A stretch of DNA of 48,582 bases, from contig NZ_WOSX01000026.1 of the NCBI RefSeq assembly GCF_011516735.1, positions 1-48,582 of the forward strand, written 5' to 3'. The position numbers and the translations under genes are program-made. Of the stretch, positions 12,673 to 47,357 are shown one piece after another. Source of the stretch: Acetobacter fallax. GTDB lineage: Bacteria > Pseudomonadota > Alphaproteobacteria > Acetobacterales > Acetobacteraceae. The notes under the pieces are model-generated. The model saw nothing but the letters and a program-made list of their open reading frames with translations. It was not told the DNA's origin and did not search any database. The first letter of the stretch is position 1. Each line of letters opens with the position of its first letter.

Positions 12673-12674
12673 TG

Positions 12675-12698
12675 GGGCGACTGGAAGAGCAGTCGCCC
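12675..12698 (+). terminator. Hairpin between transposase and target ATPase genes
   Basis: GGGCGACTG, a 6-base loop GAAGAG, then the exact complement CAGTCGCCC. It begins 2 bp after the transposase stop. There is no T run, so it may be an attenuator or mRNA-stability element that lowers B expression relative to A, not a full terminator. Confidence 0.55.
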
Positions 12699-12729
12699 GG
12701 TTCAAGGCAATACTGAAAGACATCAAGTA

Positions 12730-25387: not shown

Positions 25388-25419
25388 AGTAGCACCATTG
25401 AGAATGTGAGGCGACAGGA

Positions 25420-27102: not shown

Positions 27103-27103
27103 G

Positions 27104-27553: not shown

Positions 27554-27565
27554 GGCTGAGATAAG

Positions 27566-29827: not shown

Positions 29828-29997
29828 CACCGGTGAAAGTGGCGGACGGACGGCGTGTTCTGGATCAGACGGGGCGCGTCGTGCCGTCAGGACAGACGGT
29901 TGAGGTGGACGAAAAATGTCTTTTCTGGGCCGCGCTGATCCGTTGCGGTGATCTGGTCGCTGTGCCTGTAAAGCCCGGCAAAGGGAAGAATTCATGA
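29824..29997 (+). CDS. DUF2635 family protein (Mu gp38), 57 aa
   Basis: A 57-residue frame from the ATG at 29824 to TGA at 29997, overlapping both neighbours by 4 bp. MTPVKVADGRRVLDQTGRVV, then VEVDEKCLFWAALIRCGDLV is the DUF2635 pattern. In Mu-like phages it sits directly before the sheath gene. Function unknown, probably tail assembly. Confidence 0.82.
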   Translation: MTPVKVADGRRVLDQTGRVVPSGQTVEVDEKCLFWAALIRCGDLVAVPVKPGKGKNS

Positions 29998-31577
29998 GCG
30001 GCTCGATTACGTTCGGAGAAATCCCGGATCAGTGGGAGGTTCCCGGTGCTTACGCGGAAGTTACGCAGATCAATTCCGGCACGACGATGGCCGGGATGCC
30101 GCTGCGTGTGCTGCTGATCGGCGCTCTCAGCGCTTCCGGAACAGGTCAGGCCGGCACGATTTATCCTAACGTGACCGCATCCTCCGCGCAGTCGCTGGCC
30201 GGCCCGGGTTCATTGATGGCTCAGGCTGTGAAGGCATTTGTCACGGATGCGCCTTACACGGTTCTGGATATGGTTCTGGTCAGCCCGCAGCCCGGAGCGG
30301 CGAAACAGGCGTGGACGGTGACACCTCAGGTCTCGGGTTCGTCTTCCTCCTCCGGAACAACGGCTGCTTCCGCGTCCGGCACCTCGACGACTGCCACCGG
30401 CGTCGCGCCGGTCGTGGTTGCCGCAGCGTCTGCGTCCGGACAGACTGCACTGCAGGTGAACGGTGTGCGCGTGCCTGTCGCGGTGAGCGGCGGAATGACG
30501 GCGGCTCAGCTCGGAGCTGCGGTCGCGGCGGCGTGGACGTCCGACATTCAGTTAACGACCGGGGTGGCCTGTGTCGCCGATGCCTCTGGCGTGCTGACAC
30601 TGACGGCTGTTGAGGCTGGTGGGTGGACAGCGGATATCGACGTGCGGCAGTCGGCGCTGGCGATCGACACGGTGCCTGGCGTTTCATTTGCGATTTCGAC
30701 GCTCACGGCCGGAACAGGCTGGCCGGATATGACACCGGCCCTGAGTGTCACCAGCCACACGTGGTACACTGATATCGTCACGTGCCTGTATGACGCTGCC
30801 AATCTGGTGACTTTCGCGACGGAACTGAAGCGTCGTTTCAATGCGATGGTGAAGCTGGACGCGCATGGATATTTCGGAGCGCGAGCGACGTACGGGCAGG
30901 CTCTGGCGCAGGCTGAGACGCTGAACTGTCAGCAGATGACGTGTCTGCCGGCCGGGGGCGCGCGGTGGCATCCTGCGGTCGCGGCTGCTTCTCTGGCGGC
31001 GGTGGCGTCGGCGGCGCTGAATACGGATCCGTCGCGACAGCTGCGCGGACTTGCGCTGACCGCGCTGGCGGGGCTCGGCCCGGATGATGCGGATCGCTTT
31101 GATGAATCGATGCGCAACATTCTGCTTCAGAACGGCATGAGCACGTTTCTGGTCGGGCAGGACGGCAGCGTGACGATCGAGCGGGCGATGACGACATATC
31201 AGGCCGATTCCAACGGGAACGCGGCTGAGATGGACGCGCGCGACATCATGGTTCCGAAAACAGCCACACGGATCCGGTATGAGTGGAATCTGTATATTTC
31301 GACCACGTATCCGCGCGCGAAGCTGGCCGATGACGGATCGCCGCTGGCGAACGTGACATCCGCACAGGTCGTAACGCCGACAGTCGTGCGTAACGCGTGG
31401 GCCGGGCAGTCCCGTCTGTATGAAAATCAGGGCTGGATTGAGAACACGTCCGATCTGGCGAAAAAGGCGATCTTTACGCGGCACGCGACTGACAGGAACA
31501 GGCTGGATTCCTATCTGCCGATTCAGGTGATCGGTGCGCTGATCGTCGTCGCCAGCTCGATTCAGTTGCAGGAGTAA
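29994..31577 (+). CDS. Contractile tail sheath protein, Mu gpL
   Basis: 527 residues (Mu gpL 495). ITFGEIPDQWEVPGAYAEVT at the start, then a stretch with VSPQPGAAKQAWTV, and the C-terminal RIRYEWNLYISTTYPRAKLADDG region are typical. A Ser/Thr/Ala-rich low-complexity insertion (about residues 113-137, GSSSSSGTTAASASGT) is not usual and may be a surface loop. The sheath contracts to drive the tube through the cell envelope. Confidence 0.92.
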   Translation: MSGSITFGEIPDQWEVPGAYAEVTQINSGTTMAGMPLRVLLIGALSASGTGQAGTIYPNVTASSAQSLAGPGSLMAQAVKAFVTDAPYTVLDMVLVSPQPGAAKQAWTVTPQVSGSSSSSGTTAASASGTSTTATGVAPVVVAAASASGQTALQVNGVRVPVAVSGGMTAAQLGAAVAAAWTSDIQLTTGVACVADASGVLTLTAVEAGGWTADIDVRQSALAIDTVPGVSFAISTLTAGTGWPDMTPALSVTSHTWYTDIVTCLYDAANLVTFATELKRRFNAMVKLDAHGYFGARATYGQALAQAETLNCQQMTCLPAGGARWHPAVAAASLAAVASAALNTDPSRQLRGLALTALAGLGPDDADRFDESMRNILLQNGMSTFLVGQDGSVTIERAMTTYQADSNGNAAEMDARDIMVPKTATRIRYEWNLYISTTYPRAKLADDGSPLANVTSAQVVTPTVVRNAWAGQSRLYENQGWIENTSDLAKKAIFTRHATDRNRLDSYLPIQVIGALIVVASSIQLQE

Positions 31578-31580
31578 GAC

Positions 31581-31940
31581 ATGGCGGAATCAGTTGGCGT
31601 TCTCAGCATCTGGTGGCTCGGAACGCAGTATGATTGTCAGAAAGGCAGCTCGATCCGGCTGCCGGCGATGCGCAACGTGACGCAGGTGGCAGGTTATACC
31701 GCGCATCGGTCGAGAGAGTTTCAGCAGGGCCAGGTGAAGGCGACTCCACTCCTCCTTGTCGGGCAGAGTCTGGAGACATTCAATCCGGGGGATGAGGGCG
31801 AGCTGCAGGTTCTGGCGGACACCGGTCAGAGCTGGGTTTTTCCTGATGCGTATATCACGGATGCACCGACACTGACCGATGACGGCGGCAAGATGCCGAT
31901 CACCTGGGAAATGAGCACTTATTCGGAGACGACATCATGA
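31581..31940 (+). CDS. Tail tube protein, Mu gpM
   Basis: 119 residues, the usual size. GTQYDCQKGSSIRLPAMRNV, then FQQGQVKATPLLLVGQSLET and TGQSWVFPDAYITDAPTLTD are diagnostic of the FluMu/Mu tail tube. It forms the inner tube under the sheath. It follows the sheath by 3 bp and overlaps the chaperone gene by 4 bp. Confidence 0.9.
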   Translation: MAESVGVLSIWWLGTQYDCQKGSSIRLPAMRNVTQVAGYTAHRSREFQQGQVKATPLLLVGQSLETFNPGDEGELQVLADTGQSWVFPDAYITDAPTLTDDGGKMPITWEMSTYSETTS

Positions 31941-32287
31941 GCGATGATCTGAACGCTGGCGGGACGTTGCCGGCAGGATGCGTGCGTAACGACGACGGAA
32001 CCGTGACTGTGCCGCTCGGTTTTCCGGTTCAGGGTTCGCCCGATTCAGTTGTGATGGCGCGGCTGAACGGTCGCGCGATGGTCGATGTGATGAACGCGAA
32101 AGGAGACGGCGATCGTGCGGAGCGCATGGTGCTGGGCTCTCTCGGCTTTGTCGGGCCAAAGGGCGCGAAGTTCATCTCGGATCTCGACGGACAGGATTTC
32201 ATCACGTTGTCTGAGGTCGCGGGCGGTTTTTTGGAGAATGGCCGGAGGGCTGGCCCGTCATCCTCGCAGGACTTGCCCGCGAGCTGA
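31937..32287 (+). CDS. Tail assembly chaperone, short form (Mu gp41)
   Basis: 116 residues in the zero frame. TVTVPLGFPVQGSPDSVVMA, RAMVDVMNAKGDGDRAERM and the acidic C-half (DLDGQDFITLSEVAGGF) match Mu gp41. The last 20 residues after the slippery site are the zero-frame ending. It helps the tape measure fold and assemble. A longer form is made by -1 frameshifting; see the next entry. Confidence 0.85.
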   Translation: MSDDLNAGGTLPAGCVRNDDGTVTVPLGFPVQGSPDSVVMARLNGRAMVDVMNAKGDGDRAERMVLGSLGFVGPKGAKFISDLDGQDFITLSEVAGGFLENGRRAGPSSSQDLPAS

Positions 32288-32415
32288 GGTTCTCGGGGAC
32301 TGAAATTCTCGCCATGTCTTACGAGGACGTCGCGTTCTGGTGTGCGGCTGCCTCCGGGCTGGCCGAACAGCGGCGGGATGCGATTGAGGAGGCCATGAGA
32401 AACCGTAATGGCTGA
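31937..32415 (+). CDS. Tail assembly chaperone, -1 frameshift form (gp41-gp42)
   Basis: In the zero frame, codons GGT TTT TTG at 32225-32233 contain the slippery heptamer T TTT TTG (32227-32233). Slipping back one base gives GFFGEWPEGWPVILAGLARE and onward to RDAIEEAMRNRNG with stop TGA at 32413-32415, a 159-residue product. The zero frame would stop at 32285-32287. The -1 frame is the conserved gp42-like part and its end overlaps the tape measure ATG (32408), as in many Mu-like and lambda-type phages. Efficiency of slipping cannot be seen from sequence. Confidence 0.8.
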
Positions 32416-34489
32416 TGATCTTCGCGCAAAGTTTCAGCTCGATTTCAACGTCGGTTCGACCGAGGCGATCAGTCGTGTCGAGCAGATCCTTCAGAGAATT
32501 GACGGGGCGCTGGACAAGCTGCGCCGGGCTGTCGATCCGTTCGCAGAAATGACCGCGCCTGTCGCGCGCGCCACCGCCGCGACTCAGGCTCTGAATGAAA
32601 CGCTGGCGCGCACGACACAGGCGACCGGGAGCGCCAGTGAAGCGACGACGGTTCTGAATGAAGCGCTGAACGTGACCGGATCGGCGGCGGCGGAAGCCGG
32701 CGAGGGGCTGAGTGTTGTGGGCACGCAGGCCGAGAGTGCGGCGGCGCGGGTTTCGGATGCGGCGGCGCGAATGCAGTCGGCGATGCGCGGCGTTTCCGCG
32801 ATGAATGATTTTCACGCAGGTTATGGCGGTAGCGCGGGCAGTGCTGGCGGCGGGATGGGACGGGTCCGGGCTGCCGGAGGGGCGATCAGTGGTTTTGGCG
32901 ATTCGATAAACGCAGGAATCGGTAACGCTTTTGGCGCGGCGGCGACCGGACTTGGGCTTATTGCTCCGATCCACGCGGCGGCGGAATATGACAACGATCT
33001 GACGCATATCGGTATTACGCTGGGACAGACGGGTGCTGCGAACGCGCCTTTCGCGCGCGCGCTGGGCGAGCGGATCGATGCGATCGCGCGGCAGACCGGG
33101 CAGAAAAGTCCGGATCTTGTGGGGGCGGCATCCTTTCTCAGCCAGGAAGGCTATTCGCTGCCGAAGATTGAATCGTTTTTGCCGCAGGTTGCACGGATCT
33201 CGACGGCCTATAATTCAGCGCCGTCCGCCGTGGCGAAAACCGCCTTCGCCCTGAATCAGAATCTCGGCATCAGCGATGCACAGCTGCCAACAGCTCTGGC
33301 GATGATAGCGAGAGTGGGCAAAGAATCCGCGCTTCCTATGGAGCAGCTTGCTCCGCTCTTTCCTCTGGTCGCGTCGGCTGCCGGAGAAATCGGTGTGAGC
33401 GGGCCGCAGGGTGTGGCCGATCTTGCGTCAATGATGGCAATCATCCGTAAAAATGTCGGAACAGAAGGCGAGGCCACGACGGACCTTCGTCGTGTCATCT
33501 CAACATTTACGTCAAATCACGGTCGCACGCGTTTCAAAAAGCTTCTGGGGGTCGACCCGCAGACGATCATGGATCAGGCGAACGACCAGGGGCGAGATCC
33601 GCTTGCCGCCGTCATGGACCGGATACAGGCCGTTCCGACAGCGCGCGGGAGACAGCACGCGGTTGCCGAGCTGTTCGCCAATTTAGAAGACCGGACAGCC
33701 GCAGCAGCGATGACGCGTCAGTTCGATCAGATGATGGCGATCCGCGACAGGATTCAGAACACCTCACCGCAAATGATCAATGCGGATTTCGATACGGGTC
33801 TGCAGTCGACACTAATCCGCCTGCAGGCTTTTGAAGATGCGCTGGGTCAGCTGAACCGACGGATCGGTTCAAGCTTTGTGCCGGTTCTCAACACGTTGAC
33901 TTTCGGTCTGAAAGGTCTGGTCAGCGGGTTTGATGCGGTCAATGAAATCACGAGTGGCTGGGCCTCGACGATCTCAGGCGGTGTCGGTGGTTTTCTGGCT
34001 TTCGCGACGGCTCTTGGCGTGATCCGTGCCGTGTGTGGTCCGCTTCTGGCCGGCCTGTCATTGCTGCGCATCGGCGCACTGGCGCTGATCAGCCCCTGGG
34101 GACTCGTGGGGATGGCGCTCGCTGGCGTCGGTGTGGCCGCTTATGAAATTTACAAGCATTGGGACGGGATAAAGCCTTATTTCACGGCTCTGGGTTCGTG
34201 GATGACGTCATGGGGCAGGTCGATCGGGTCTTTCTTCTCGCATATTTTCGACGGTTTTTCGGCGGCGTTTCACGACATCGAAAACCGGATCGCATCGTCG
34301 TCTCTTGGTCACCTTATGGGGATGTCTGCGGTTCCTCATCTTGTGCCGGCGATCCCTTCGGGTGGTGGCCAGTCTCAGTTCGGGCTGCATGTGTCGCATG
34401 AGCCCGGGCTGCGGATCACGCAGACGGGTGGTCCACGTGGCGCGATGACGATCGGTCCGGATCGCGGCCGGATGGTAGCGCAGCCGTGA
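32408..34489 (+). CDS. Tail tape measure protein
   Basis: 693 residues. The N-terminal 110 residues are coiled coil with Ala-rich heptads (VEQILQRIDGALDKLRRAVD). A glycine-rich stretch (about 138-190) precedes the conserved core with IARQTGQKSPDLVGAASFLS and related repeats. Two or more hydrophobic segments lie at about 520-600 (LLRIGALALISPWGLVGMAL). The length sets tail length; 693 residues implies a short to medium tail of about 100 nm if the usual 1.5 angstrom per residue holds. Start overlaps the chaperone frameshift end. Confidence 0.88.
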   Translation: MADDLRAKFQLDFNVGSTEAISRVEQILQRIDGALDKLRRAVDPFAEMTAPVARATAATQALNETLARTTQATGSASEATTVLNEALNVTGSAAAEAGEGLSVVGTQAESAAARVSDAAARMQSAMRGVSAMNDFHAGYGGSAGSAGGGMGRVRAAGGAISGFGDSINAGIGNAFGAAATGLGLIAPIHAAAEYDNDLTHIGITLGQTGAANAPFARALGERIDAIARQTGQKSPDLVGAASFLSQEGYSLPKIESFLPQVARISTAYNSAPSAVAKTAFALNQNLGISDAQLPTALAMIARVGKESALPMEQLAPLFPLVASAAGEIGVSGPQGVADLASMMAIIRKNVGTEGEATTDLRRVISTFTSNHGRTRFKKLLGVDPQTIMDQANDQGRDPLAAVMDRIQAVPTARGRQHAVAELFANLEDRTAAAAMTRQFDQMMAIRDRIQNTSPQMINADFDTGLQSTLIRLQAFEDALGQLNRRIGSSFVPVLNTLTFGLKGLVSGFDAVNEITSGWASTISGGVGGFLAFATALGVIRAVCGPLLAGLSLLRIGALALISPWGLVGMALAGVGVAAYEIYKHWDGIKPYFTALGSWMTSWGRSIGSFFSHIFDGFSAAFHDIENRIASSSLGHLMGMSAVPHLVPAIPSGGGQSQFGLHVSHEPGLRITQTGGPRGAMTIGPDRGRMVAQP

Positions 34490-35904
34490 GTGGATTTCTG
34501 GGTGCGCTGAGCAGTATCGGGTCGCTTGCCCAGGGCGAGGGCGCCGCCGTTCTGAGTTCGGCCGGCGGTGTCTCCGGTCTGCTGGCATCGCCGTTCGGTT
34601 CGATCCTGAGCACGGCGAGCTGGCGTGGCGTGACGTTTTTCATGCCGTCTTCACAGAGTTCCGCCGGCCGTCGTCTCGTCCAGCTGCTGTTTCCGGGGTC
34701 GGACACCTGGCGGGTCCAGGATTTCGGCAAGGCACCGCAGACGATCCGGATTCGCGGGCTGATCATCGGTGACGACTATGTCATTCGTGCGAAGAGGATG
34801 GCGGCGGCGCTGGAGAAATCCGGCCCGGCGACGCTGATTCATCCATGGTTCGGGACGGTGCAGGCACGGCTGCTGGAGCCGGCGTCGATCAGTTTCTCGG
34901 ACGGCGAGATCCGTCTCGCACGCTTCGAGGCAACGTTTCTGCGTGAGCAGGCCGCCAGCACTTCGGGAGGTCTGTTTTCACAGATCGCCAGCACGATCGA
35001 TTCAGTTCTGACATCGGCGGACGATCTGGTCGATCAGGCCACGATGGTGGTCCAGAGTGTGCTCTCGCCGCTTAATGTGGGGCTCGCGCTGGCGGGCGCG
35101 GCGCAGGGAGTGGTCAGTCAGGTCAGCGGTGTCTGGGACGCGCTCGTGGGCTCCTCGCCTGTCGCGGTGCAGGCAGCGGCGCTGAGCGGGCAGACGGCGC
35201 TGGCTGCGGGTGTGACCGCGCCGACGACGAACGCGGATACGAGCTGGGCGGATTCAGTGACGGAAGTCCTTTCGGACGTGCCGTCATCGATCGCGAACGC
35301 GGCCATCCCGACCGATACGTCTGCGGTGGCGGCTTCGGTCGCGGTCGTCGGTGATGTGTCGGATGATGTCGATGTGACGACGGCCGTCACGCTGCTGCTG
35401 ACAGCGGCGGTTCAGATCGGTGCGGCGGGCACGGCGGCGGCGGCATCTTCCGTGGTGCCTGGCAATGTTCTGGCGCTGTCTCTGGCTGCCCGGGTTCTGA
35501 CGGTTTCTCAGGCGATGGCGGCACAGACCGCGCAGGTTTATGCGAGCCAGCCTGATGCACTGACGGCCCGGGATACGATGCTGGCCGCGCTGGCTGGTGT
35601 CGAGGCAGATCTCGATGCGGCGATGTCAGTGGCGACCGTGCCGCTTATGGCTCTGGGATTTTCAGTTCAGAACGCACGGACTCAGGTGACGGCCGACATC
35701 AGCGCACAGCTTGGCCGTCTGCCTGCTCTGGTGACTGTCACGACGGGCTGTCCGGTAAACGCCTGGGCGGTCGCTTATGCGGTGGCAGGTGACACGCCAT
35801 CGGATGTTGCGTCCATATGGGATGATCTCGTCACCCGTAACGACCTGATTCATCCGGCTCTGGCCGGTCCGGGCGATGTGATGGTGCTGGAGCCTTCATC
35901 GTGA
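34486..35904 (+). CDS. DNA circularization N-terminal domain tail protein, Mu gpN (gp43)
   Basis: 472 residues, GTG start overlapping the tape measure stop. WRGVTFFMPSSQSSAGRRLV, LFPGSDTWRVQDFGKAPQTI and the following IRIRGLIIGDDYVIRAKRM are characteristic of the DNA_circ_N family. The C-terminal part is Ala/Val/Thr-rich helical. It belongs to the baseplate hub and tail tip of Mu-like phages. Confidence 0.88.
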   Translation: MSGFLGALSSIGSLAQGEGAAVLSSAGGVSGLLASPFGSILSTASWRGVTFFMPSSQSSAGRRLVQLLFPGSDTWRVQDFGKAPQTIRIRGLIIGDDYVIRAKRMAAALEKSGPATLIHPWFGTVQARLLEPASISFSDGEIRLARFEATFLREQAASTSGGLFSQIASTIDSVLTSADDLVDQATMVVQSVLSPLNVGLALAGAAQGVVSQVSGVWDALVGSSPVAVQAAALSGQTALAAGVTAPTTNADTSWADSVTEVLSDVPSSIANAAIPTDTSAVAASVAVVGDVSDDVDVTTAVTLLLTAAVQIGAAGTAAAASSVVPGNVLALSLAARVLTVSQAMAAQTAQVYASQPDALTARDTMLAALAGVEADLDAAMSVATVPLMALGFSVQNARTQVTADISAQLGRLPALVTVTTGCPVNAWAVAYAVAGDTPSDVASIWDDLVTRNDLIHPALAGPGDVMVLEPSS

Positions 35905-37232
35905 GCGCGACGGCCGCGACGGTCACGGCTTCAAGGCGCCCGGTGCGCGTCCTGGTCGCTGGCCGTGAACTGCTGACATGGACGACGGTCGAGGCCGGCC
36001 GCGATCTCGCTGACATCGCCGGGGCTTTCCGCATTGAATATACCGATGTTCTCAGAGACTCTGATGCAGGTTTCCAGTCTGCGTCGTCCGATGCGATTCC
36101 GGTTCATGAGCACATGGCCGTGCAGATTTACATTCACGGCGCGCTGGTTCTGAACGGTTACATCGATGATCTCGACCTGGTGTGCCAGGACGGCCAGGCA
36201 CGTTGCACGGCATCGGGTCGCGACCGCGCTGGCGACCTGGTGGACTGTGCGGCCAATCCGGTCGGCCCGGGTGAGTATCGACAGGTGCAGCTGCTCGATG
36301 TCGTCGGCTCGCTGGTGAAACCCTACGGTCTGTCAATCGACAGTGATACGGACACCGGTGCGCCGTTTACGCTGGTGGCGGTTGACGAGGGAGAGCCGGT
36401 GATGTCGGCCATCGAGAAACTGAGCCGTCAGCGCGGGGTTCTGATCGTGTCCGATGGTGTGGGTGGTCTCAGGCTGACGAAGGCCGGGCAGCAGCGCGCT
36501 GCCGGCGACATTATCTTTCCGACACGAGGCACGTCTCTGGAGACGAGGGTCTCCGTGCGCGAGCATTATTCGGACGTCTGGGTCAAGGGGCAGTTTCCCA
36601 GCCAGCTCCGGCCCGCTCAGGCCACGCTCAGTGCTTCCTCAGCGCCGGCTGATCGGCCGGTCAGCGCGTCCGGAGCGCAGTCGTTCACGCAACAGGAAAT
36701 GAATGCGTCGGCGCGGTATGGCCATGCGGTCGATCCGTCGGTCGGCCGGTGGCGTCCGCGTTTGTGGCTGGCGAAAACGCAGAGTGGTGGCTCGAAAGCA
36801 ACGCAGAACGCGGGCAATCCGCCGCTGGACGCTGATGCAGCCGGATTCCTGCGAAGTCAGGGCCTGAATCCGGCAGCCTATCATGCGGCGCCTGCGGCGA
36901 CGGGTCGCAGCAAAAAGCGGGCTGCTTCGAAGCCACGGTCCGATACAGACCCGTGGACGCTCCAGGATCAGGCCGAGTGGCGGATGCGCAGCACGAAAGC
37001 TCATGGCACCGCGCGGGTTTATACGGTCGCTGGCTACGCGGTGAATGACGAATTATGGCGACCGAACACGGTTGTGCGCGTCCGCGACAGTTATTCAGGG
37101 ATTGACGGCGACAGGCTGATCGGGGCTGTGACGTATGTCGCGGATGCCAGTGGATACCGCACACGAATTTCGGTGGTCAGCCTGGATGCCTACAACATCG
37201 AGGGCGAGCCTTCGACGGCGGCGAGACGATGA
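35901..37232 (+). CDS. Baseplate hub protein, Mu gpP (gp44)
   Basis: 443 residues. The start VRVLVAGRELLTWTTVEAGR, then IPVHEHMAVQIYIHGALVLN, GYIDDLDLVCQDGQARCTAS and SAIEKLSRQRGVLIVSDGVG are typical of gp44 (gpD-like tail hub fold). The region 225-330 is a disordered linker rich in Ser/Ala/Lys. Start and stop overlap neighbours by 4 bp. Confidence 0.9.
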   Translation: MSATAATVTASRRPVRVLVAGRELLTWTTVEAGRDLADIAGAFRIEYTDVLRDSDAGFQSASSDAIPVHEHMAVQIYIHGALVLNGYIDDLDLVCQDGQARCTASGRDRAGDLVDCAANPVGPGEYRQVQLLDVVGSLVKPYGLSIDSDTDTGAPFTLVAVDEGEPVMSAIEKLSRQRGVLIVSDGVGGLRLTKAGQQRAAGDIIFPTRGTSLETRVSVREHYSDVWVKGQFPSQLRPAQATLSASSAPADRPVSASGAQSFTQQEMNASARYGHAVDPSVGRWRPRLWLAKTQSGGSKATQNAGNPPLDADAAGFLRSQGLNPAAYHAAPAATGRSKKRAASKPRSDTDPWTLQDQAEWRMRSTKAHGTARVYTVAGYAVNDELWRPNTVVRVRDSYSGIDGDRLIGAVTYVADASGYRTRISVVSLDAYNIEGEPSTAARR

Positions 37233-37798
37233 GCGATCATCTGTGGATGGCTCTTCGCGCGCATACGGTCCGCGCGGTGATTCATGCGATCGATGACACG
37301 GGTGCCGAGCAGGCTGTGGATCTGACTGCGCATTATGGCTCTCCGCGCACGAAAGTTCCTGTTCATTATCCGTTCGGGTTCGCGTCGAGCGTTCCTCTGG
37401 ACGGGGCCGTCACGCATGTTGTGGCGACGGGTGGCGATCAGGCTGATCTGGTTGCGCTGCCGCCAGCTAATCCGTCGGTCGCGCGGGTGGGTCCGCTGGC
37501 CGAAGGTGAAGCGGTTCTCTACGATTCAGTCGGGCAGAAAGTGTATCTGTCCGGCGGAAGGATTGTCCGGGTTGACGCGCACACGTCGATGGACGTGCGG
37601 ATCGGTGGCAAGATGGTGTTTCAGGTCACGGCGGGCGGCGCGGCGGTAACGGGCAGTCTGAGCGTCTCCGGTGATGTCGCGGTTCAGGGCAATGTCACGT
37701 CGCAGAAAGACGTTGTGGCCAGTGGGATCTCACTCACGAAGCATGTGCATGGCGGTGTTCAGGGCGGCTCATCGACGACGGGCGCGCCGCAGGACTGA
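37229..37798 (+). CDS. Baseplate spike protein, Mu gp45-like
   Basis: 189 residues. It has the OB-fold part with VPVHYPFGFASSVPLDGAVT, a beta-helical needle region (IVRVDAHTSMDVRIGGKMVF and GSLSVSGDVAVQGNVTSQ), and a C-terminal tip KHVHGGVQGGSSTTGAP with the His-x-His that binds an iron ion in P2/Mu spikes. It pierces the outer membrane. Its stop TGA overlaps the recurring GATAAAGCGCT element. Confidence 0.9.
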   Translation: MSDHLWMALRAHTVRAVIHAIDDTGAEQAVDLTAHYGSPRTKVPVHYPFGFASSVPLDGAVTHVVATGGDQADLVALPPANPSVARVGPLAEGEAVLYDSVGQKVYLSGGRIVRVDAHTSMDVRIGGKMVFQVTAGGAAVTGSLSVSGDVAVQGNVTSQKDVVASGISLTKHVHGGVQGGSSTTGAPQD

Positions 37799-37814
37799 TA
37801 AAGCGCTGGATCAT
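37797..37814 (+). promoter_or_regulatory. Recurring GATAAAGCGCT element before gp46
   Basis: GATAAAGCGCTGGATCAT begins inside the gp45 stop codon and lies in one of the few gaps of the tail region. It is one base different from the element at 26079. It precedes the gp46 start (37849) by 34 bp. Confidence 0.6.
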
Positions 37815-37848
37815 AGTATGAGCCCTCCGCGCGCGCGATGGTTCGCGC

Positions 37849-38328
37849 ATGGTTCAGACAGCCGGAATGATGATGCGGTTTCGTGCGGAGCTGGGTGCGT
37901 GCGACCTGATGGTCGCGGCGTCCGGCAACGGTCGCGGCCGGATCATGGTCGATGCCACCCCGGAAACGATGCTTTTATCTCAGATAGGAAGCGACCGGCG
38001 CGCTGATCCGTCTGATACTCTGCCGCAGGAAGTGGCGCTGCTGCCCGCGCAGAGCGGCGGTGCCTTTGGTCGCCGTGGCTGGCCTGGCGACACACTGCTG
38101 CCGCTCGCGACGAGGCAGGGCTCGCGTCTGTGGCTTCTCTCCCGAGGCAAAGCCGACGAGGACGACCGGGTCGCGGCGATCGGCTACGCGGCAGAGGCCG
38201 TCGGTCCTGTTGCGGATTATACCGGAGTGGACGCGCAGGTGACAGCCGGCTGGCTTCGGGCTGGTGTTCTGCAGATTTCAGTGACAGTGGCCAGCACGAC
38301 GGTCCGCGCGCGGGCAGGCCGCGCATGA
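37849..38328 (+). CDS. Baseplate protein, GP46 family (Mu gp46)
   Basis: 159 residues. LLSQIGSDRRADPSDTLPQE, then the FGRRGWPGDTLLPLATRQGS loop with SRLWLLSRGKAD match GP46 (gpW/gp25-like). It forms the inner baseplate ring with gp47. ATG at 37849 is chosen; ATG at 37867 is also possible. Its stop overlaps gp47. Confidence 0.88.
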   Translation: MVQTAGMMMRFRAELGACDLMVAASGNGRGRIMVDATPETMLLSQIGSDRRADPSDTLPQEVALLPAQSGGAFGRRGWPGDTLLPLATRQGSRLWLLSRGKADEDDRVAAIGYAAEAVGPVADYTGVDAQVTAGWLRAGVLQISVTVASTTVRARAGRA

Positions 38329-39407
38329 CGCTGGAAATTCCGACGCCATCGACCATCGCGCGCCGCTTTGCTGCGGCACTGCTGGCGAACCCGGTGACTG
38401 CGTCTGACGGATCTCAGGTGGTTCTTGACGCTAACGCTCCGGGCTCGGTCGAGCAGGTTCTTGGCGGTGCGTTCTCGATGGAGATGACCGGCGTCTATCG
38501 CTATGCGCGCGACTGGTGTCTTGAGCTGATGGTCACGACAGCGACCCCGAACGGGTTACTGCCGCAGCATGCGGTGCAGTGGGGGGTGCCGCGCATCGCC
38601 GCGCAGTCCGCGATCGGCAACGTTCTGGTGGCAGGCACATTGCCGACTGTTGTGCCGATCGGACAGGCCGTGACGATCGACGGATCTGTGAACTGGACGG
38701 TCACGGCGGAAACAACACTGGTGGCCGGCACAACAGTCAGCATGCCGGTGATGGCCGCGACGTCCGGATCGGTCGGTAATCTGGCTGCGGGAACAGCTCT
38801 GACAGCGGTGACACCGATCGCAGGCGTGACGTCCGTTGTGGTGGACGGATCAGGGCTCGCTGGCGGGGCTGCGATTGAAGCGGCCGACAGCTGGCGGGCG
38901 CGGATCATCGACGAAATCCGCAATCCGCCGGGTGGCGGCACGCCGGACGATTACGTCAAATGGGCGAAGGCTGCCGGCGCTGCCTATGTGAACGTGGTGG
39001 GCGGCTGGCTCGGCGTCGGCACCGTTGGCGTGATTGTCGCTATGGCTGGTCGCGTCGCTCCGACCGCTGCGCAGATATCGGCCATTCAGGCCTATATCGA
39101 CGATCCGTCCAGAAAAATCGTCCGCGCCAATGCGACGGTTATTCCGGCGACCATCGTGTCGAAAACCATCGTGTTGTCGATTGATCCTGACACTCTGACA
39201 GCACGGGCAGCAGTGGAGCAGGCTGTCAGTTCATTTTACGGCGGCACTGGTCTCGGGGCTGAACTTTATCTCTCTCAGCTGTCCGACGCGATTTCGTCCG
39301 TGGCTGGCGAAACCAGTCATCTGATCATCTCTCCGACCGACAACGAGCAACTCGCGCCAAATCAGCTGACCGTTCTCGGTGGCGTGGCGTGGCAGGCAGC
39401 GTCATGA
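38325..39407 (+). CDS. Baseplate wedge protein J-like, Mu gp47
   Basis: 360 residues from the ATG at 38325; the longer upstream frame overlaps gp46 and is not used. IPTPSTIARRFAAALLANPV, then FSMEMTGVYRYARDWCLELM and RIIDEIRNPPGGGTPDDYVK with KWAKAAG and YVNVVGGWLGVGTVGVIVAM are diagnostic of the gp47/JayE baseplate J family. Together with gp46 and gp48 it makes the wedge. Confidence 0.92.
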   Translation: MTLEIPTPSTIARRFAAALLANPVTASDGSQVVLDANAPGSVEQVLGGAFSMEMTGVYRYARDWCLELMVTTATPNGLLPQHAVQWGVPRIAAQSAIGNVLVAGTLPTVVPIGQAVTIDGSVNWTVTAETTLVAGTTVSMPVMAATSGSVGNLAAGTALTAVTPIAGVTSVVVDGSGLAGGAAIEAADSWRARIIDEIRNPPGGGTPDDYVKWAKAAGAAYVNVVGGWLGVGTVGVIVAMAGRVAPTAAQISAIQAYIDDPSRKIVRANATVIPATIVSKTIVLSIDPDTLTARAAVEQAVSSFYGGTGLGAELYLSQLSDAISSVAGETSHLIISPTDNEQLAPNQLTVLGGVAWQAAS

Positions 39408-40652: not shown

Positions 40653-40772
40653 GTGACGCTACGGCTTCAGCGCAGGGACGTTGATCTTGTCACGTCTCTG
40701 CTCGTCGAGGTGCCATTTAAAGTCAGCGCACCGGTCATTTCGCGTATTTCAGCGCAGATGACCGGCAGATGA
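40653..40772 (+). CDS. Small protein of unknown function (39 aa)
   Basis: A GTG at 40653, preceded by GGAGG at good distance, opens a 39-residue frame MTLRLQRRDVDLVTSLLVEV to SAQMTGR. It fills the gap before gp48 and overlaps its ATG by 4 bp (ATGA). Tight packing and the ribosome site support it; function unknown. Confidence 0.55.
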   Translation: MTLRLQRRDVDLVTSLLVEVPFKVSAPVISRISAQMTGR

Positions 40773-41392
40773 GCGTTCTTCTGGACAGCGCTGATACGGT
40801 CATACTGGATCAGAATGGCGATCCTCTGCTCGACCAGGGTCCGCGGCCGCCGCGCACGCTCGACGAAATCCGGACTGGCATTCTGCGCGATCTGCTGCCG
40901 CCCGGATGGGCGTGGCCACATGTCGCGGGCAGTAATCTCGGATCAATGGTGTCGGGCCTGGGGGTGCCGATCGAGGCTCTGGACGCGGATATCGCGGCGC
41001 TCGCTCTTGAGATCAGCCCGGCGCAGTCAACGCTGCTGCTGTCTGATTATGAGGTGGTTCTCGGCGCGGATCCCTGCGGAACTGATCCGGCGGGTATGGC
41101 CCTGTCAGCGCGCCAGGCGTTCGACAATGCACGCTGGATCGGCTCATCCGGTGTCAGCGACGCGTTTTTCAGGCGACTGTCCGATGCGGCTGGCGTGACG
41201 ATTTCGATTGAGGAGCCTGAGCCGCCAGTCTGTGGTGAGGTGGTTTGCGGCGAGACGGTCTGTGGTGACATCGATTTGCGTTTCATCTGGATCGTGACGC
41301 TTCCGAATCACGAAACGGGACTCGAATGTCCGTTCCGCCGCAACTCGCCGCCCGATCTCACGCTGGTCTTTGATTATGCGGGTAACAGCTGA
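40769..41392 (+). CDS. DUF2313 family baseplate/tail protein (Mu gp48)
   Basis: 207 residues. RTGILRDLLPPGWAWPHVAG, then SPAQSTLLLSDYEVVLGADP and MALSARQAFDNARWIGSSGV fit DUF2313 (YmfQ-like). An insertion with the repeated PVCGEVVCGETVCGDI (three VCG units, about 151-166) lies before the last beta part and is common in the alphaproteobacterial members. It connects the baseplate to the fibres. Confidence 0.88.
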   Translation: MSVLLDSADTVILDQNGDPLLDQGPRPPRTLDEIRTGILRDLLPPGWAWPHVAGSNLGSMVSGLGVPIEALDADIAALALEISPAQSTLLLSDYEVVLGADPCGTDPAGMALSARQAFDNARWIGSSGVSDAFFRRLSDAAGVTISIEEPEPPVCGEVVCGETVCGDIDLRFIWIVTLPNHETGLECPFRRNSPPDLTLVFDYAGNS

Positions 41393-42198
41393 TGGATTAC
41401 ACGACTGCGCCCGGTTATGTGACGGTGGACGGTGTCCGTCAGTATGCCGATCGCGATCCGGCGAACGGTGTGCCAGGCACCGCATTGATCGCGGCAGACC
41501 GAACCGCGACCATGGTCGAGATCATGACCGTTATCGCCAAGGCCGGCCTGGCGCCGTCAGCGACGGATCTGACCCAGCTATGGCAGGCCATCGTCTCGAT
41601 CGCGAAGGGTGTCGAGGTTGAAGGCGAGGTCGGGTTTACGCCCGTGCAGCAGGGAGGCCGGCCGGACCAGGGTGCCAATAAGATCAATATTGGTCTGGCT
41701 GCGGATCTCGCCGGCATTCTTCGGTTCGCGGTCGACGGCAATGATCTCGGGTTTCTGGTTCCATCTTCTCCGGCGGCGGCTGATCGCCCTGTCCGGAACC
41801 TGATTGATTCCACAGGATCTGGCGGTCCGTGGCTGTCCAGCGATGGCTGGAACGGCCGTCTGGTCGGTCTGCCGGACTATTCATCGGCCTGGAGCGCCCC
41901 GTCCACCTGGGTTTCGGACACGGGAGCCGCTTCGGGTTACCGTCGTTCTCCGGACGGACTGATCATGCAGTCCGGTGTGGTCTGGCACGATGCGCCGACG
42001 GGTGCGCTCGATCCGACTGTCTATGAGCCGTATTTCGCGATTCCGTTTCCGAACGGCGTGCGGCGGTGGGGCGTCAATATCCTTGATTCAGCAAATCCGT
42101 CGGGCGTGTCGATCTGCGTCGATGTTCCCGAACTCGATCACATGATGATCAACTGCACGCACGCGCTCTCCTGTGTCTGGTTCGCCGATGGCTACTGA
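41392..42198 (+). CDS. Tail fibre protein
   Basis: 268 residues. MDYTTAPGYVTVDGVRQYAD and TMVEIMTVIAKAGLAPSATD with LTQLWQAI form the conserved N-terminal part of many Mu-like fibres. The C-terminal part has SGYRRSPDGLIMQSGVVW and FAIPFPNGVRRWGVNI, like the gp53-like tip domain. It binds the host surface. The next gene looks like a fibre assembly partner. Confidence 0.82.
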   Translation: MDYTTAPGYVTVDGVRQYADRDPANGVPGTALIAADRTATMVEIMTVIAKAGLAPSATDLTQLWQAIVSIAKGVEVEGEVGFTPVQQGGRPDQGANKINIGLAADLAGILRFAVDGNDLGFLVPSSPAAADRPVRNLIDSTGSGGPWLSSDGWNGRLVGLPDYSSAWSAPSTWVSDTGAASGYRRSPDGLIMQSGVVWHDAPTGALDPTVYEPYFAIPFPNGVRRWGVNILDSANPSGVSICVDVPELDHMMINCTHALSCVWFADGY

Positions 42199-42199
42199 T

Positions 42200-42412
42200 A
42201 TGAAAGGCCGCGTGTTTTTCTGGAGCGCGTCACGCTCGACGTTTTATCCGGCTGAACTGCGCGAAATTTACAAGACCAGCGTTCACGGCTGGCCGTCCGA
42301 CGCGGTCGAGGTCGATACGGCGCTGTTCGTTGAGTATGGGCTTGGCTCGGCGCGGCCCGGAAAACGTCGCGGCACGGGGCCTGATGGCCTGCCGGCATGG
42401 GTGACGGCATGA
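42200..42412 (+). CDS. Small tail-fibre assembly (Tfa)-like protein
   Basis: 70 residues from the ATG at 42200 (ATG 42188 is also in frame). FFWSASRSTFYPAELREIYK, then GWPSDAVEVDTALFVEYGLG and the PDGLPAWV end match the first part of Tfa-type fibre chaperones (WPEDAVEV, G.GLP). It is shorter than usual Tfa proteins (about 180). It follows the fibre gene, as expected, and overlaps the next gene by 4 bp. Confidence 0.7.
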   Translation: MKGRVFFWSASRSTFYPAELREIYKTSVHGWPSDAVEVDTALFVEYGLGSARPGKRRGTGPDGLPAWVTA

Positions 42413-42723
42413 CGACGCTGGGATTCCGGCTCGGTCTGCCTCTGGCAATGCTGGTCGCTATTGATGCGCCGAATGGTGGTGTGGCGGATCTGACGGGCTG
42501 TGCCTTCGCCTCTCAGGTCCGCGATGCGCTCGGCACGCTGGTTGCGACGATGACCGTGACGGCGGTGGCCTCGCAGCCCGGCTCTGTTCAGATCGCGGTA
42601 TCGGACACGACACAGTGGCCGCCCGGGCAGCTCTGGTGTGATCTCAACGTGACCTGGCCGAACGGTCTGACGACACCGACGCGGCCATGGATGCTCACGA
42701 TGCTGCGCGGCGTGACGCGATGA
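42409..42723 (+). CDS. Small tail-region protein of unknown function
   Basis: 104 residues from the ATG at 42409. It is beta-rich: TLGFRLGLPLAMLVAIDAPN, then CAFASQVRDALGTLVATMTV and WPPGQLWCDLNVTWPNGLT. A single small Ig-like beta domain is possible. Found between the fibre chaperone and the GH30 protein; may decorate the fibre or attach the enzyme. Confidence 0.6.
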   Translation: MTTLGFRLGLPLAMLVAIDAPNGGVADLTGCAFASQVRDALGTLVATMTVTAVASQPGSVQIAVSDTTQWPPGQLWCDLNVTWPNGLTTPTRPWMLTMLRGVTR

Positions 42724-42986
42724 GCGGGCCTCTGATGACCGCGATGATGAGCGTGCGGGTTTACCCGTCGCAGCCGGTGTCTGTGACGCCTCAGGTGGTG
42801 TCGGCGACGACGGCTGCGGACGGGTTTCTGGTTCTGACGCTTTCAGATGGTTCGACTGTGGTTGCGATTGACCCGGCTTCGGCCGTGGGGCTCGCGATCG
42901 CGGCGGCTCTGGGCGGTGAAGTGAGTGTGGCGGAGGCTGTCCCGTCGGCGGGTGGTGTGGTGCCGATGGTTCTGGCGAAGGGTTGA
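42720..42986 (+). CDS. Small tail-region protein of unknown function
   Basis: 88 residues from the ATG at 42720, overlapping the preceding stop by 4 bp. Short beta-rich protein (VYPSQPVSVTPQVVSATTAA, then FLVLTLSDGSTVVAIDP) with an Ala/Val-rich end. It lies 10 bp before the GH30 tail gene and probably belongs to the same adhesin module. Confidence 0.6.
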   Translation: MSGPLMTAMMSVRVYPSQPVSVTPQVVSATTAADGFLVLTLSDGSTVVAIDPASAVGLAIAAALGGEVSVAEAVPSAGGVVPMVLAKG

Positions 42987-42996
42987 GGAGAACAAA

Positions 42997-45900
42997 ATGA
43001 GCGATACAGCGGCAATGCCGACATTTCAGGATGTGGCGTCTTTTGAAGAGGTCACTGAAATTCAGGCAGGCGATGCTATTCTGCTTGTCAGGGCGGGCAA
43101 CTGGAAGCGCGTTAGCAGCAGCCTGCTCGCGGGCGGTCAGCCTGTCACCGAAGTCATCGGGCCGGGCGCGACGTATAATCTTGCGTTCGGAGCCGCTGGA
43201 AACAACGGATTTTCCATTGTGCCTAATGCACCGCTGACCTTGTCGGCGTCGGGCGGAACGCAGGGACAGGTGCAGTTCATGGCTGTGCATCTGACCCAGC
43301 CTGCGACGGGTGGTTTTGCCGTGACATGGGGTTCCGGCATTATCTGGCGATCCGGCAGCGCTCCTGTTTTCAGCACGGCGGCTGGCGCGGAGCTGCTTGT
43401 GCTGCTTTCGACGGATGACGGTGGTGTCACCATTATCGGTGACGCGCCTCTGACAGAGGCTGACGATCTGAGTGTCTCGGTCGGTGGCACGCGGATGTCG
43501 ATCGCCGCGGCACTTGCTCAGATCCAGGCCGGGACAGGAAATGCAGCCGAACTGACACGCGGACTGATTGTTCAGCCAAAGCTCACCGTGACCGACCTCG
43601 CACTGGCAGCACCGGTATCCGATCAGGAAATCGCTGCTTTTGCGCCAGTCGTGAACAATGGCGGCATGAATCAGATTACTGTCGATCCGCGCACCGTCGT
43701 GCAGGAGTGGATGGGCTGCGGTTGTGCGGTCACGGACAGTGTCGCCTATAATCTGCTCACCTATTTTCCGGTGAAAGCCGATCGTCTCAAGCTCTATGAT
43801 ATGATCTGGGGCTCAGGTGGCATGAACACCATCCGCACCGAAATCGGACCGTGCGACTATCGTTTCACGGACTGGCCTCCCTACATTGCGGATGATGTGA
43901 CAGACGACTGGACGTGCAGCACGTTCTCGATGCCGCATGACGAACAATACAAATTGATGATTTTGCGCGAAATCTGCGAGGTGAATCCGGATATCAAGAT
44001 CATCGGCAGCGCGTGGACGCCGCCGCTGATGTTCAAAGAAGCCTACTCCGGTCCGGGCTCGGGCGGCACCGGTCCAAGCTGGAACGCTGGCCAGATCAAT
44101 CCGACCACTCAGGTCTTCAATGCGTATGCGCTCTATCTGATTAAATTCGTTCAGGCTTATGCGGCGCACGGCGTCCCTGTGTGGGCGCTCACAATGGGTA
44201 ACGAGAACAATTTCGGTTCTGGTACGTGGCCCTCGACCTACTGGTCGGCCGACAACCTCACCGCATTTGCGCCGATCCTGAAATCCGCGCTGATGGAAGC
44301 CGGTCTGGATACGCTGGTGATGGGGGGCGACGTTAGCTGGCAGTACGGCGATGATCTGAACAGCAAAAACCGGTTCACGGAAAGCATGGCCGCGAATGGC
44401 GCGTTCGTCCGCGATTATGCGTTTCATAATTACGCCGGCAGCGTGAGCAGCCAGACCTTTCTGATCTCGGGCTATGGCGACATCGCGACACCACTTCGCG
44501 CGCACATGACCGAGTATTGTGCCGACTACCGGTTCACGGCGACTTATCGCGCGCAGATGATGATTCCGGAGATGTTCATCGGGAATATTCGTGCGCAGGG
44601 CTGTTCCCTGACACTCTGGAATATGATTCTGGATGACATCGGTGGCCCGTGGCAGGCATCCCTGACCGAAGGAAACAGTTTTCACGGCGTTCTGGATTTC
44701 AATCGCAGCACGCTGGCTGTGACAAAAACCGCCGAATATTACTACCTCGCGCATATCGCGCAGATGTTTCCGCCGGGCACGAAAATCATCCGCAGCACAA
44801 ATCCGGGCTTCGGCATCAATTATGCAGGCATTCAGAACGCTGCCGGTCTGCGCCCTGACGGCACGATTGTCGTCGCGCTGTTCAACAATCAGGCTGGGTC
44901 GGACACATGTGTCGTGCGCGATGGTGTGACCGGGACAGCGCGCCAGGTGACGCTCCAGCCTTACGCGTTCTCGACGCTGGAATGGTCGGTGGCTGATGCG
45001 GTCTCTGATGCAGGAACGCTGGCTGTTCCGCCTGCTCTGACGAACGTCGCTGGCGTTTCGAGCGGCGGCAAAGCGGTGTTTTCGTGGGGCCTGCCGTCGA
45101 CAGCGACCTGCGACATTGCTGGCATCCGTGTGGTGGCAGGAACGTCGCCGACGGACACGTCCCTGTCCACCACACTGTCGGGAACGGCGACGAGCTGGAC
45201 GCCAGCGGCTACTGCAGGGCAGACGATCTATGCGACGTTCGCGCCGTTGAGTGTGGGTGGTAGTGGTCCGACGTCGGCTCAGGTTTCTGTTGCGGTGGTT
45301 GCGCCGCCAGCAGGCGCGCCAACCGTATCAGCGACGGCGACCATTAACGGTGCCGACGTTACTGTCGCGCCGGCTACATCCGGGACAGCGGCGGCGTCAT
45401 TCGACATTTACGCGGGCTCGTCCGCAACCACACTGGCGAAGATCGGAAATGTCGCGGCGAATGGCACGAGTCCTGTGACCTATGCAGCGACCGGACTGAC
45501 AGCCGGCTCACTGTATTATGTCGCAGCGACGCCCATCGAGGCCGACGGCACGGCTGGCACCCAGTCTGAAACGACAACGGTGACACCGATTGCAACAGCG
45601 GTTCCGGGTGCTCCGACGATCGCTCTGACGCCTGGTGATGCGAAGGTTACGATCGTCATCACGCCACCCGCCGATAATGGCGGAGCAGCTCTTGCGTCAT
45701 ACTCCATCTATGGCGGCACGAGCGCCGGATCATTGTCGAAAATCGGCACTGTCGCCGCCAACGGCACAGCTCCGGTGACGTATGTCCAGTCACCTGAGCC
45801 GAACGGCACGACGGTTTATATGACCGCCTCTGCGACGAACGCTGTTGGCGAAGGGGAACAGTCAGCCGTAGCCAGCGTAACCCCGGGTGCGGCGGCGACG

Positions 45901-46884
45901 GCGCCTGGTGCTCCGGCCGTCACATTGACTCCAGGCAACGGACAGATCGTCGTCGCGGTCGCGGCTCCTGCCAATAACGGCGGCGCCACGATCACGGGGT
46001 ATCCGATCATCGTGAACGATGCGAGCAGCCCGGTTACGACCCTGACGGCGGCAGGATCCTACGCGGTCACGGGCTTGACGAACGGCACGGCTGTATCCGT
46101 GAAGGTGGGTGCCACGAACAGCGTCGGCACCACGTATTCGGCTGACCAGTCGGCTACGCCTGTCGCTCCTGTCGCGCCAACAGAGCCTGCGCATTATCTG
46201 CAGCTCGGGACGAATGATGGTGGCGCGTGGGTGCAGAAGAGCATCGACCTGACGAACGGCGTCCTTGATTCTGAAATCCTGCTCGATCTGAACGGCTACA
46301 CCTCGGCCACGGTTCCGGCGTTCACGAAAAACACGTTCCTGTTCGGTGACTACGATCCCAACAACACGAACAATACTGCCGCGAACTGCTCCTTTGGGCT
46401 TCTGCTTGGGACAGATGGCACACCCGGGATCAACGTTTACGACAAGAGCGGGACAACGCATGAGCTCTGGGCAGAGACGGGCACTGCCGGCACGCCAGTC
46501 GGGTTCTCCACGGGTAAAGAGGGTGGCATTCGCTGCATTCTGAATGCGTCAGGCGCCGCCTTTACTGCATATGACGGGAAGGTCGTGGCGAACGATACCG
46601 CGCAGTTCTTTCAGTCGCTTGATGGTTCGACATGGGAGGCGCTCGGGTCCGCGCAGGCGTATTCAGGCACAGGTCTGCAAACAGCCGCGTCCGGCGGATC
46701 GTATCCTGTCATTGCCGCTGGAATGATTGGCGGCAAGGTCTTCAGTGCGTTTGCCCGAAACGGCAACGGAGCGCCGGCTTACGGGCCTGATTTCACGACA
46801 GCATCCACCGGGGCTTCCACGGTTACGGATGCCGCAGGCGTGGTCTGGAATGTTGATTCCGGAAATGGCGCGAGTGTCGTCTGA
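42997..46884 (+). CDS. Tail protein with GH30-type glycoside hydrolase and fibronectin III repeats
   Basis: 1295 residues from the ATG at 42997, with GGAG upstream. Residues 1-45 are a tail anchor module (VASFEEVTEIQAGDAILLVR), then a beta-rich region to 220. From about 225 to 665 there is an O-glycosyl hydrolase of GH30 type: QEWMGCGCAVTDSVAYNLL, then MNTIRTEIGPCDYRFTDW, KIIGSAWTPPLMFK, the acid/base E403 in ALTMGNENNFG and the nucleophile E506 in RAHMTEYCADYR, ending with a small beta domain. Residues 675-1060 contain about four fibronectin III-like repeats with recurring IYGGTSAGSLSKIGTVAANG-type units. The last 230 residues form a lectin-like beta-sandwich. It probably degrades host surface polysaccharide. 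The exact glycosidic bond is unknown. Confidence 0.88.
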   Translation: MSDTAAMPTFQDVASFEEVTEIQAGDAILLVRAGNWKRVSSSLLAGGQPVTEVIGPGATYNLAFGAAGNNGFSIVPNAPLTLSASGGTQGQVQFMAVHLTQPATGGFAVTWGSGIIWRSGSAPVFSTAAGAELLVLLSTDDGGVTIIGDAPLTEADDLSVSVGGTRMSIAAALAQIQAGTGNAAELTRGLIVQPKLTVTDLALAAPVSDQEIAAFAPVVNNGGMNQITVDPRTVVQEWMGCGCAVTDSVAYNLLTYFPVKADRLKLYDMIWGSGGMNTIRTEIGPCDYRFTDWPPYIADDVTDDWTCSTFSMPHDEQYKLMILREICEVNPDIKIIGSAWTPPLMFKEAYSGPGSGGTGPSWNAGQINPTTQVFNAYALYLIKFVQAYAAHGVPVWALTMGNENNFGSGTWPSTYWSADNLTAFAPILKSALMEAGLDTLVMGGDVSWQYGDDLNSKNRFTESMAANGAFVRDYAFHNYAGSVSSQTFLISGYGDIATPLRAHMTEYCADYRFTATYRAQMMIPEMFIGNIRAQGCSLTLWNMILDDIGGPWQASLTEGNSFHGVLDFNRSTLAVTKTAEYYYLAHIAQMFPPGTKIIRSTNPGFGINYAGIQNAAGLRPDGTIVVALFNNQAGSDTCVVRDGVTGTARQVTLQPYAFSTLEWSVADAVSDAGTLAVPPALTNVAGVSSGGKAVFSWGLPSTATCDIAGIRVVAGTSPTDTSLSTTLSGTATSWTPAATAGQTIYATFAPLSVGGSGPTSAQVSVAVVAPPAGAPTVSATATINGADVTVAPATSGTAAASFDIYAGSSATTLAKIGNVAANGTSPVTYAATGLTAGSLYYVAATPIEADGTAGTQSETTTVTPIATAVPGAPTIALTPGDAKVTIVITPPADNGGAALASYSIYGGTSAGSLSKIGTVAANGTAPVTYVQSPEPNGTTVYMTASATNAVGEGEQSAVASVTPGAAATAPGAPAVTLTPGNGQIVVAVAAPANNGGATITGYPIIVNDASSPVTTLTAAGSYAVTGLTNGTAVSVKVGATNSVGTTYSADQSATPVAPVAPTEPAHYLQLGTNDGGAWVQKSIDLTNGVLDSEILLDLNGYTSATVPAFTKNTFLFGDYDPNNTNNTAANCSFGLLLGTDGTPGINVYDKSGTTHELWAETGTAGTPVGFSTGKEGGIRCILNASGAAFTAYDGKVVANDTAQFFQSLDGSTWEALGSAQAYSGTGLQTAASGGSYPVIAAGMIGGKVFSAFARNGNGAPAYGPDFTTASTGASTVTDAAGVVWNVDSGNGASVV

Positions 46885-46886
46885 TA

Positions 46887-47357
46887 ATGGTTCACGGCTT
46901 TCTGCCTTTCTGGACGCAGTTTCATGAGCCGATTGAGTTCGCGAGTGGCGTTCTCAGCGGCTGGTGGGGCTATCTTCTCAGGTCGCGGAAGGTCGCCCGC
47001 CAGAAACGCTATGAGACTGGTCAGCTCGCTCTCAGGCTGGTTTCAGCGTCTGAGGAGCAGATCGTCAGGCTGAATGATCTGCTCCTCTCTTACGCCGACG
47101 AGATTGATGGCTTGCGTCAGGGTCGCTGGCTCCTGCTGGATTGTCTGGCGGATATTCAGGCGCAGGCGCTGGCCGCGAGACTTATTGTTCATGAACTGGA
47201 TGATCGTCTGGGGTTACCGCCTCGCCAGTTCACCCCGTTACCTCCGTATCCGCCAGATTTGCGGACGGGGGCTCAGGCTGCTGACACAGCCCAGCCGCGT
47301 GCGGACACACGCCCGATAAATCGACCCGCCACCTCTGCAGAGGCGGAGTCAGTATGA
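46887..47357 (+). CDS. Phage protein of unknown function, helical, proline-rich tail
   Basis: 156 residues. The N-terminus holds an amphipathic or membrane-near segment (FASGVLSGWWGYLLRSRKVA), then a long helix with LALRLVSASEEQIVRLNDLL and LLLDCLADIQAQALAARLIV, then a Pro-rich tail (LPPRQFTPLPPYPPDLRTG). It lies between the GH30 protein and the methyltransferase. Near its end the DNA reads CCCGATAAATCGACCC, a weak form of the recurring element. No family recognised. Confidence 0.6.
   Translation: MVHGFLPFWTQFHEPIEFASGVLSGWWGYLLRSRKVARQKRYETGQLALRLVSASEEQIVRLNDLLLSYADEIDGLRQGRWLLLDCLADIQAQALAARLIVHELDDRLGLPPRQFTPLPPYPPDLRTGAQAADTAQPRADTRPINRPATSAEAESV

Follow-up and report, generated by a model that had tools for sequence, protein, structure and literature searches.

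The window analysed here is a contig of 48,582 nucleotides from Acetobacter fallax (NZ_WOSX01000026.1, positions 1 to 48,582 of the forward strand, assembly GCF_011516735.1), and it carries a Mu-like myoprophage, as seen from its MuA and MuB genes together with head and tail genes of the Mu type. In the tail-fibre region of this prophage lies a gene (42997..46884, forward strand) encoding a protein of 1295 residues with a glycoside hydrolase family 30 (GH30) domain; the protein is likely a tail fibre and, as we read its sequence, would probably cut the host's surface polysaccharide at a beta-linked glucose. Phage tail enzymes acting on polysaccharides are mostly beta-helical, and what is new here is a GH30 variant of these known tail glycan enzymes, which is real and unusual. 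The reading is built on the domain order of the protein, its predicted fold, the presence of six of the seven catalytic and subsite −1 residues, and the position of the gene in the tail-fibre region of the Mu-like prophage.

Residues 190–666 (43564..44994) are predicted by AlphaFold2 (AF2) to form a (beta/alpha)8 barrel with a linked beta-sandwich, the arrangement expected of GH30, in agreement with VIA-align and Pfam; structure prediction, proposed as a check in the initial annotation, returned the fold that had been foreseen. PF02055 (GH30) matches residues 240–408 (2.6e-15), and one match to the GH30 beta-sandwich and one to fibronectin III (fn3) each score below the Pfam threshold in this protein. 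In GH30 the acid/base glutamate follows strand beta4 and the nucleophile lies at beta7; these places are occupied by E403 (codon 44203..44205) and E506 (codon 44512..44514), the predicted acid/base and nucleophile, which had been picked out as the catalytic pair before any alignment and which indeed align with E238 and E339 of BT3312, the endo-beta-1,6-glucanase of Bacteroides thetaiotaomicron (GH30_3, 5ngk/5ngl). BT3312 residues, with the roles given for them in PMC5481569, were mapped onto the protein through the profile of a GH30 alignment. D131, W179, N237, E238, E339 and W377 correspond to D287, W340, N402, E403, E506 and W541, and the same six residues are found in the relatives P0002 (from the same genome), P0003 (Acetobacter estunensis) and P0095 (A. 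sicerae) as well as in all 28 other aligned GH30s. This pattern bears on the idea of a GH30 domain that binds glycan but is catalytically idle. Some tail modules do bind glycans without cutting them, and PF02055 is matched over part of its length only, but six of the seven catalytic and −1 residues, both glutamates included, are present in the window's protein, P0002, P0003 and P0095 alike, and the two glutamate columns are invariant in the alignment of virus-type GH30 sequences (n = 11, including P0001 to P0003 and P0095); we regard an idle module as improbable.

The picture is different around this core. The residues forming the −2 and plus subsites of BT3312, H281, N282, D286, W345, C393 and C396, are replaced by V446, S447, G451, F513, G559 and F562, so that none of the six is kept, or none of seven if N244 of the −1 subsite is counted. 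H281, N282 and D286 of this set belong to the plus subsites in BT3312. The C393–C396 disulfide pair at −2 is thereby absent; among the 28 other aligned GH30s both cysteines occur in 17 and H281 in 21, and the N282 position is retained in P0095. Identity to BT3312 is 27%, and the score with NCBIfam NF053856, the equivalog of the BT3312 type, is 156.1 bits for a cut-off of 700. By alignment, then, most of the catalytic core is retained, whereas the residues surrounding it differ from those of the solved beta-1,6-glucanase. The suggestion in the initial annotation that the substrate may be new fits with this result, the nearest characterised enzyme being a beta-1,6-glucanase none of whose six −2 and plus residues is retained. 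Because these are lost, the substrate cannot be read from the sequence alone, and the enzyme might instead be directed at a surface glycan other than an acetan-like polymer, for instance a lipopolysaccharide O-chain or another heteropolysaccharide. We give this alternative somewhat less than an even chance, since the six retained catalytic and −1 residues hold a glucose in BT3312, and the side chain of acetan bears a beta-1,6-linked glucose near its end (PMC7961339).

The GH30 domain is joined to modules of tail type, and the description of its fusion with fibronectin III repeats, encoded where a Mu-like phage has its tail-fibre genes, was supported. The N-terminal stretch of residues 67–148 (43195..43440), the proposed virion anchor, is matched by the tail-fibre PHROGs 7760 (2.1e-6), 9017 (1.6e-4) and 32568 (0.015), with the best match over residues 87–148; tail-fibre profiles are confined to this end, and no PHROGs profile matches the GH30 part at an E-value of 0.1. 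Behind the GH30 domain the predicted model contains repeats with the fibronectin III fold: a first, weaker one at approximately residues 676–767 (45022..45297), covered only by the four-domain match 6tpw among the 50 fold matches listed, and three more at approximately residues 772–1057 (45310..46167) that are also recovered by fold matches. The C-terminal domain (residues 1060–1295, 46174..46881), proposed to be lectin-like in the initial annotation but modelled with low confidence, has a counterpart with 29% identity on the GH30 protein of an IMG/VR contig (L012).

A phmmer search of the PDB ranks BT3312 first (5ngk, 3.8e-35); SrfJ of Salmonella and human glucocerebrosidase come next, and xylanases rank far lower. 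In the fold comparison BT3312 is tied with SrfJ as best match. BT3312 is a surface lipoprotein, as judged from its signal and from assays (PMC5481569), whereas the protein described here is joined to tail-type modules. Separate GH30 enzymes nearest to residues 205–670 show at most 32% identity among the 40 matches listed. When residues 1–700 were searched against 5.8 billion proteins, 7993 candidates were scored and five matched, the query among them; two of the matches are close. P0095 was missed by this search and found only with the C-terminal part, and our homologue counts are therefore lower bounds. Matches of the GH30 type occur in 25 plasmid records, all below 60% identity.

One of the close matches, P0002 (79% identity over 76% of residues 1–700), is encoded by a second GH30 gene in the same genome, on contig C3 (L004:9111-12482, reverse strand), flanked by tRNA-Arg(ccg) and a gyrA-like gene. 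No phage gene was recognised among the tested neighbours of this copy, and a search there for a tRNA-derived repeat found none. An open reading frame (ORF) of 313 residues adjoining it carries the N-terminal module and is 39% identical to the N-terminus of the window's protein across 114 columns; it stops three bases before the GH30 gene in the same frame, with the stop codon in between (the pair spans L004:9111-13427). The simplest reading of the C3 copy is a phage remnant at a tRNA. Its chromosomal setting could also be taken, together with the fact that the best PDB sequence match is an enzyme for fungal beta-1,6-glucan (though tied with SrfJ in fold), to mean that the GH30 enzyme is no infection tool but cargo serving the lysogen, for example by digesting yeast or fungal beta-1,6-glucan in fermentations. 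The −2 and plus subsite residues of BT3312 are lost, though, the gene lies in the tail-fibre region and encodes a tail-fibre-like N-terminus, the ORF beside the chromosomal copy has the same N-terminal module, and no signal peptide is visible by eye in the N-terminal sequences, all of which makes a cargo enzyme improbable.

P0003, P0095 and the 1235-residue protein of L012 share with the window's protein the succession of GH30 domain, repeats and C-terminal part, and the genes of P0003 and L012 come, as here, after baseplate and tail-fibre genes. P0003 represents a single locus, the two listed loci being by their coordinates the same place in opposite orientations. The N-termini differ: P0003 and P0095 have a CBM5/12-like domain that is absent here (26.0 bits in P0003, just below the cut-off of 26.2, and 28.9 in P0095). 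The genes of P0003 and L012 are, moreover, preceded by one for a phrog_4137 protein, which in the case of P0003 is a Gp77-type adaptor by Pfam; no match of the phrog_4137 type was found before the 42997..46884 gene when its neighbours were compared with Pfam and PHROGs. In P0119 (910 residues), fibronectin III repeats related to those here (59% identity across 32% of the queried part) are combined with GDSL/SGNH hydrolase domains, and because of this combination the enzymatic heads look exchangeable; P0119 is a candidate for a tail esterase built on this scaffold. From these sequences, anchors as well as heads read as exchangeable among the relatives.

The initial annotation had called a GH30 enzyme in a Mu-like tail unusual. 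In 50,697 phage records a tblastn search with the whole protein gave only five hits at an E-value of 1e-3, none annotated or described as a tail enzyme: one is a Salmonella record of 501 kb, and the other four, two of them faecal (21.7 and 12.1 kb) and two short (3.8 and 2.7 kb), carry no annotation. The N-terminal 205 residues matched only two records of one Vibrio phage (8e-3) in the phage set, and residues 660–1295 none. That part of the claim stands, but its restriction to a Mu-like phage proved too narrow, since other viral contigs, too, carry GH30 genes in the company of virion genes. When 2.9 million viral contigs were scanned with the GH30 alignment, eight loci were recovered, one of them the present prophage; the scan relied on two short peptide patterns and hence undercounts. 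PF02055 is above its cut-off in all seven others, barely so in L016 (24.9 for a cut-off of 23), where PF14587 scores higher, and head or tail genes are present on the same contig in six of the seven (L011 to L016); in L010 an HNH match was the only one among the two neighbours tested. In L012 the GH30 gene follows baseplate, fibre and phrog_4137 genes. L014 belongs to a different tail type, with a tape measure, Dit and a Tal/endopeptidase-type protein followed by a GH30 protein of 932 residues (L014:4610-7405), which starts with the phage module phrog_32779 (function unknown) and has its GH30 domain behind it. The frame in L013 is short (303 residues) and could be an assembly join, and the frame listed for L015 begins within another ORF. 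GH30 genes among phage virion genes are thus not limited to the present Mu-like phage. Repeating the scan with alignment A5 added no contig; scans of the viral contigs found no relative with P0095 and P0119, nothing beyond the window's own contig with P0001 and P0003, and just this contig and L012 with the C-terminal domain. As a separate observation, L016:5473-7125 holds a GH30_2-like gene (PF14587, 550 residues) between major head and tail sheath genes.

A viral fold library gave six matches at 1e-3 or better, with a TM-score of 0.36 by query length for the best; one of the six is annotated as a phage GH5 (1.5e-9), so glycosidases with a barrel fold are not in themselves novel in phages. A tail GH30 enzyme was not described in the literature consulted, a limited set made up largely of titles, abstracts and passages, and GH30 is not mentioned in the text of PMC10194240 covered by a search for the term. 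A near case is the baseplate protein L16(c2)/ORF36(bIL67) of lactococcal Ceduovirus phages, whose middle domain is likened to GH30 by Foldseek (PMC12474359); phage type and host are different there, and the likeness is one of fold only. RcGTA, an alphaproteobacterial phage-like particle, has TspA, a spike that degrades biofilm, and, at its baseplate, the TIM-barrel domain of the megatron protein, but the active site of TspA lies between subunits, it is not termed GH30 in the passages at hand, and the function of the TIM-barrel domain is called unknown (PMC13420450).

Position and domain order suggest how such a fibre may work. The N-terminus would hold the protein on the baseplate, with the GH30 domain next to it, the fibronectin III repeats as a spacer, and the C-terminal domain facing the cell and binding its surface. 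Cleavage would follow the two-step retaining mechanism of the family, with E403 as acid/base and E506 as nucleophile, and cutting of the polysaccharide would let the particle reach the cell. The best candidate substrate is the side-chain beta-D-Glc-(1,6)-alpha-D-Glc bond of an acetan-like exopolysaccharide, a guess with some support; cutting there would trim side chains and leave the backbone unbroken. In Komagataeibacter xylinus this side chain is Rha-(1,6)-beta-Glc-(1,6)-alpha-Glc-(1,4)-GlcA-(1,2)-Man, and loci of the acetan type occur in Acetobacter species, with aceR universally lost in those homologous to the K. xylinus locus (PMC7961339). On host contig C9 a run of genes (L023:2593-10428) encodes a sugar transferase, a WecG-like glycosyltransferase, a Wzc-like ATPase, a GT4 glycosyltransferase, a beta-barrel porin (BBP2_2) and Poly_export, and resembles the acetan core described in PMC7961339. 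A glucose site that is largely retained next to an altered −2 region would be suited to a side chain whose end is a beta-1,6-glucose, either bare or with rhamnose on it. In its widest form, which we consider unlikely as a whole, the proposal would be that GH30 tail enzymes are recurrent, overlooked and swapped between unrelated phages, and that the branch of acetic acid bacteria has kept the glucose-cutting core, rebuilt the cleft and trims the beta-1,6-glucose side-chain end of an acetan-like polymer, not its backbone. If a clan GH-A barrel serves as a tail head, a wider range of catalytic types should be looked for in phages; the proposal also names a specific pair of enzyme and polymer for bacteria of vinegar, kombucha and cellulose production, and an enzyme for acetan-like gums would help structural work on them.

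Several points weigh against this reading of the protein and its substrate. The proposed N-terminal virion anchor is weakly backed by its profile matches, and the AF2 model of this region has a predicted local distance difference test (pLDDT) score under 50; a host-surface binding role of the C-terminal domain is a guess, its predicted model being of low confidence. In the active site, the seventh −1 contact of BT3312, N244, is T410 here, a position also unconserved in the two other GH30 enzymes compared in PMC5481569, and F513, which stands where BT3312 has W345, is an aromatic residue too, so that a −2 subsite may remain. The second copy, in the chromosome and with no phage gene recognised among the neighbours tested, could mean a host-serving role. 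As for the polymer, the C9 sugar transferase scores 370.9 bits with TIGR03023, below the cut-off of 410.75, the same family is matched in nine of 14 control genomes, genes for GumK, AceQ and AceP were not identified in the host genome, and the gum-like core cluster on C9 could make another polymer. PF21374, tried as a marker for GumK, proved to be WsaF_N and matched nowhere.

The gene order in the window is that of a Mu-like succession, on the forward strand where a strand is given: repressor, MuA, MuB, head, tail, baseplate and fibre genes, two small ORFs and the GH30 gene, which thus stands among tail and baseplate genes as a tail depolymerase gene would. The MuA-like transposase (10690-12672; phrog_310, 4.2e-160) and the MuB-like protein (12730-13725; phrog_296, 4.6e-73) together span 10690..13725. 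Profile matches identify terminase, portal, protease, major head, tail sheath, tape measure, and baseplate hub and wedge genes in 20071..39407, followed by a Mu Gp48-like baseplate wedge (40769..41392; PF10076, phrog_203) and a separate tail-fibre protein (41392..42198) with PHROGs tail-fibre matches. The small ORFs encode 108 residues (42397..42723; phrog_1084, function unknown) and, immediately upstream of the GH30 gene, 99 residues (42687..42986; no Pfam or PHROGs match); the sequence gaggag at 42985..42990, resembling a ribosome-binding site, precedes the ATG at 42997. Immediately downstream lie an ORF of 156 residues (46887..47357, forward strand), also without Pfam or PHROGs match, and a D12-class (D12/Dam-type) adenine DNA methyltransferase gene (47358-48182) at the right end of the prophage, after the tail-fibre region. 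Megablast with 24.9 kb of the prophage matched no phage record, and Rfam and tRNA scans of the window gave no matches; distant relatives of the transposase occur in 169 phage records. A tail-fibre-type ORF of 472 residues (phrog_863, 5098-6516) lies well left of all other tail genes, on the far side of the repressor, and possibly comes from another prophage or remnant.

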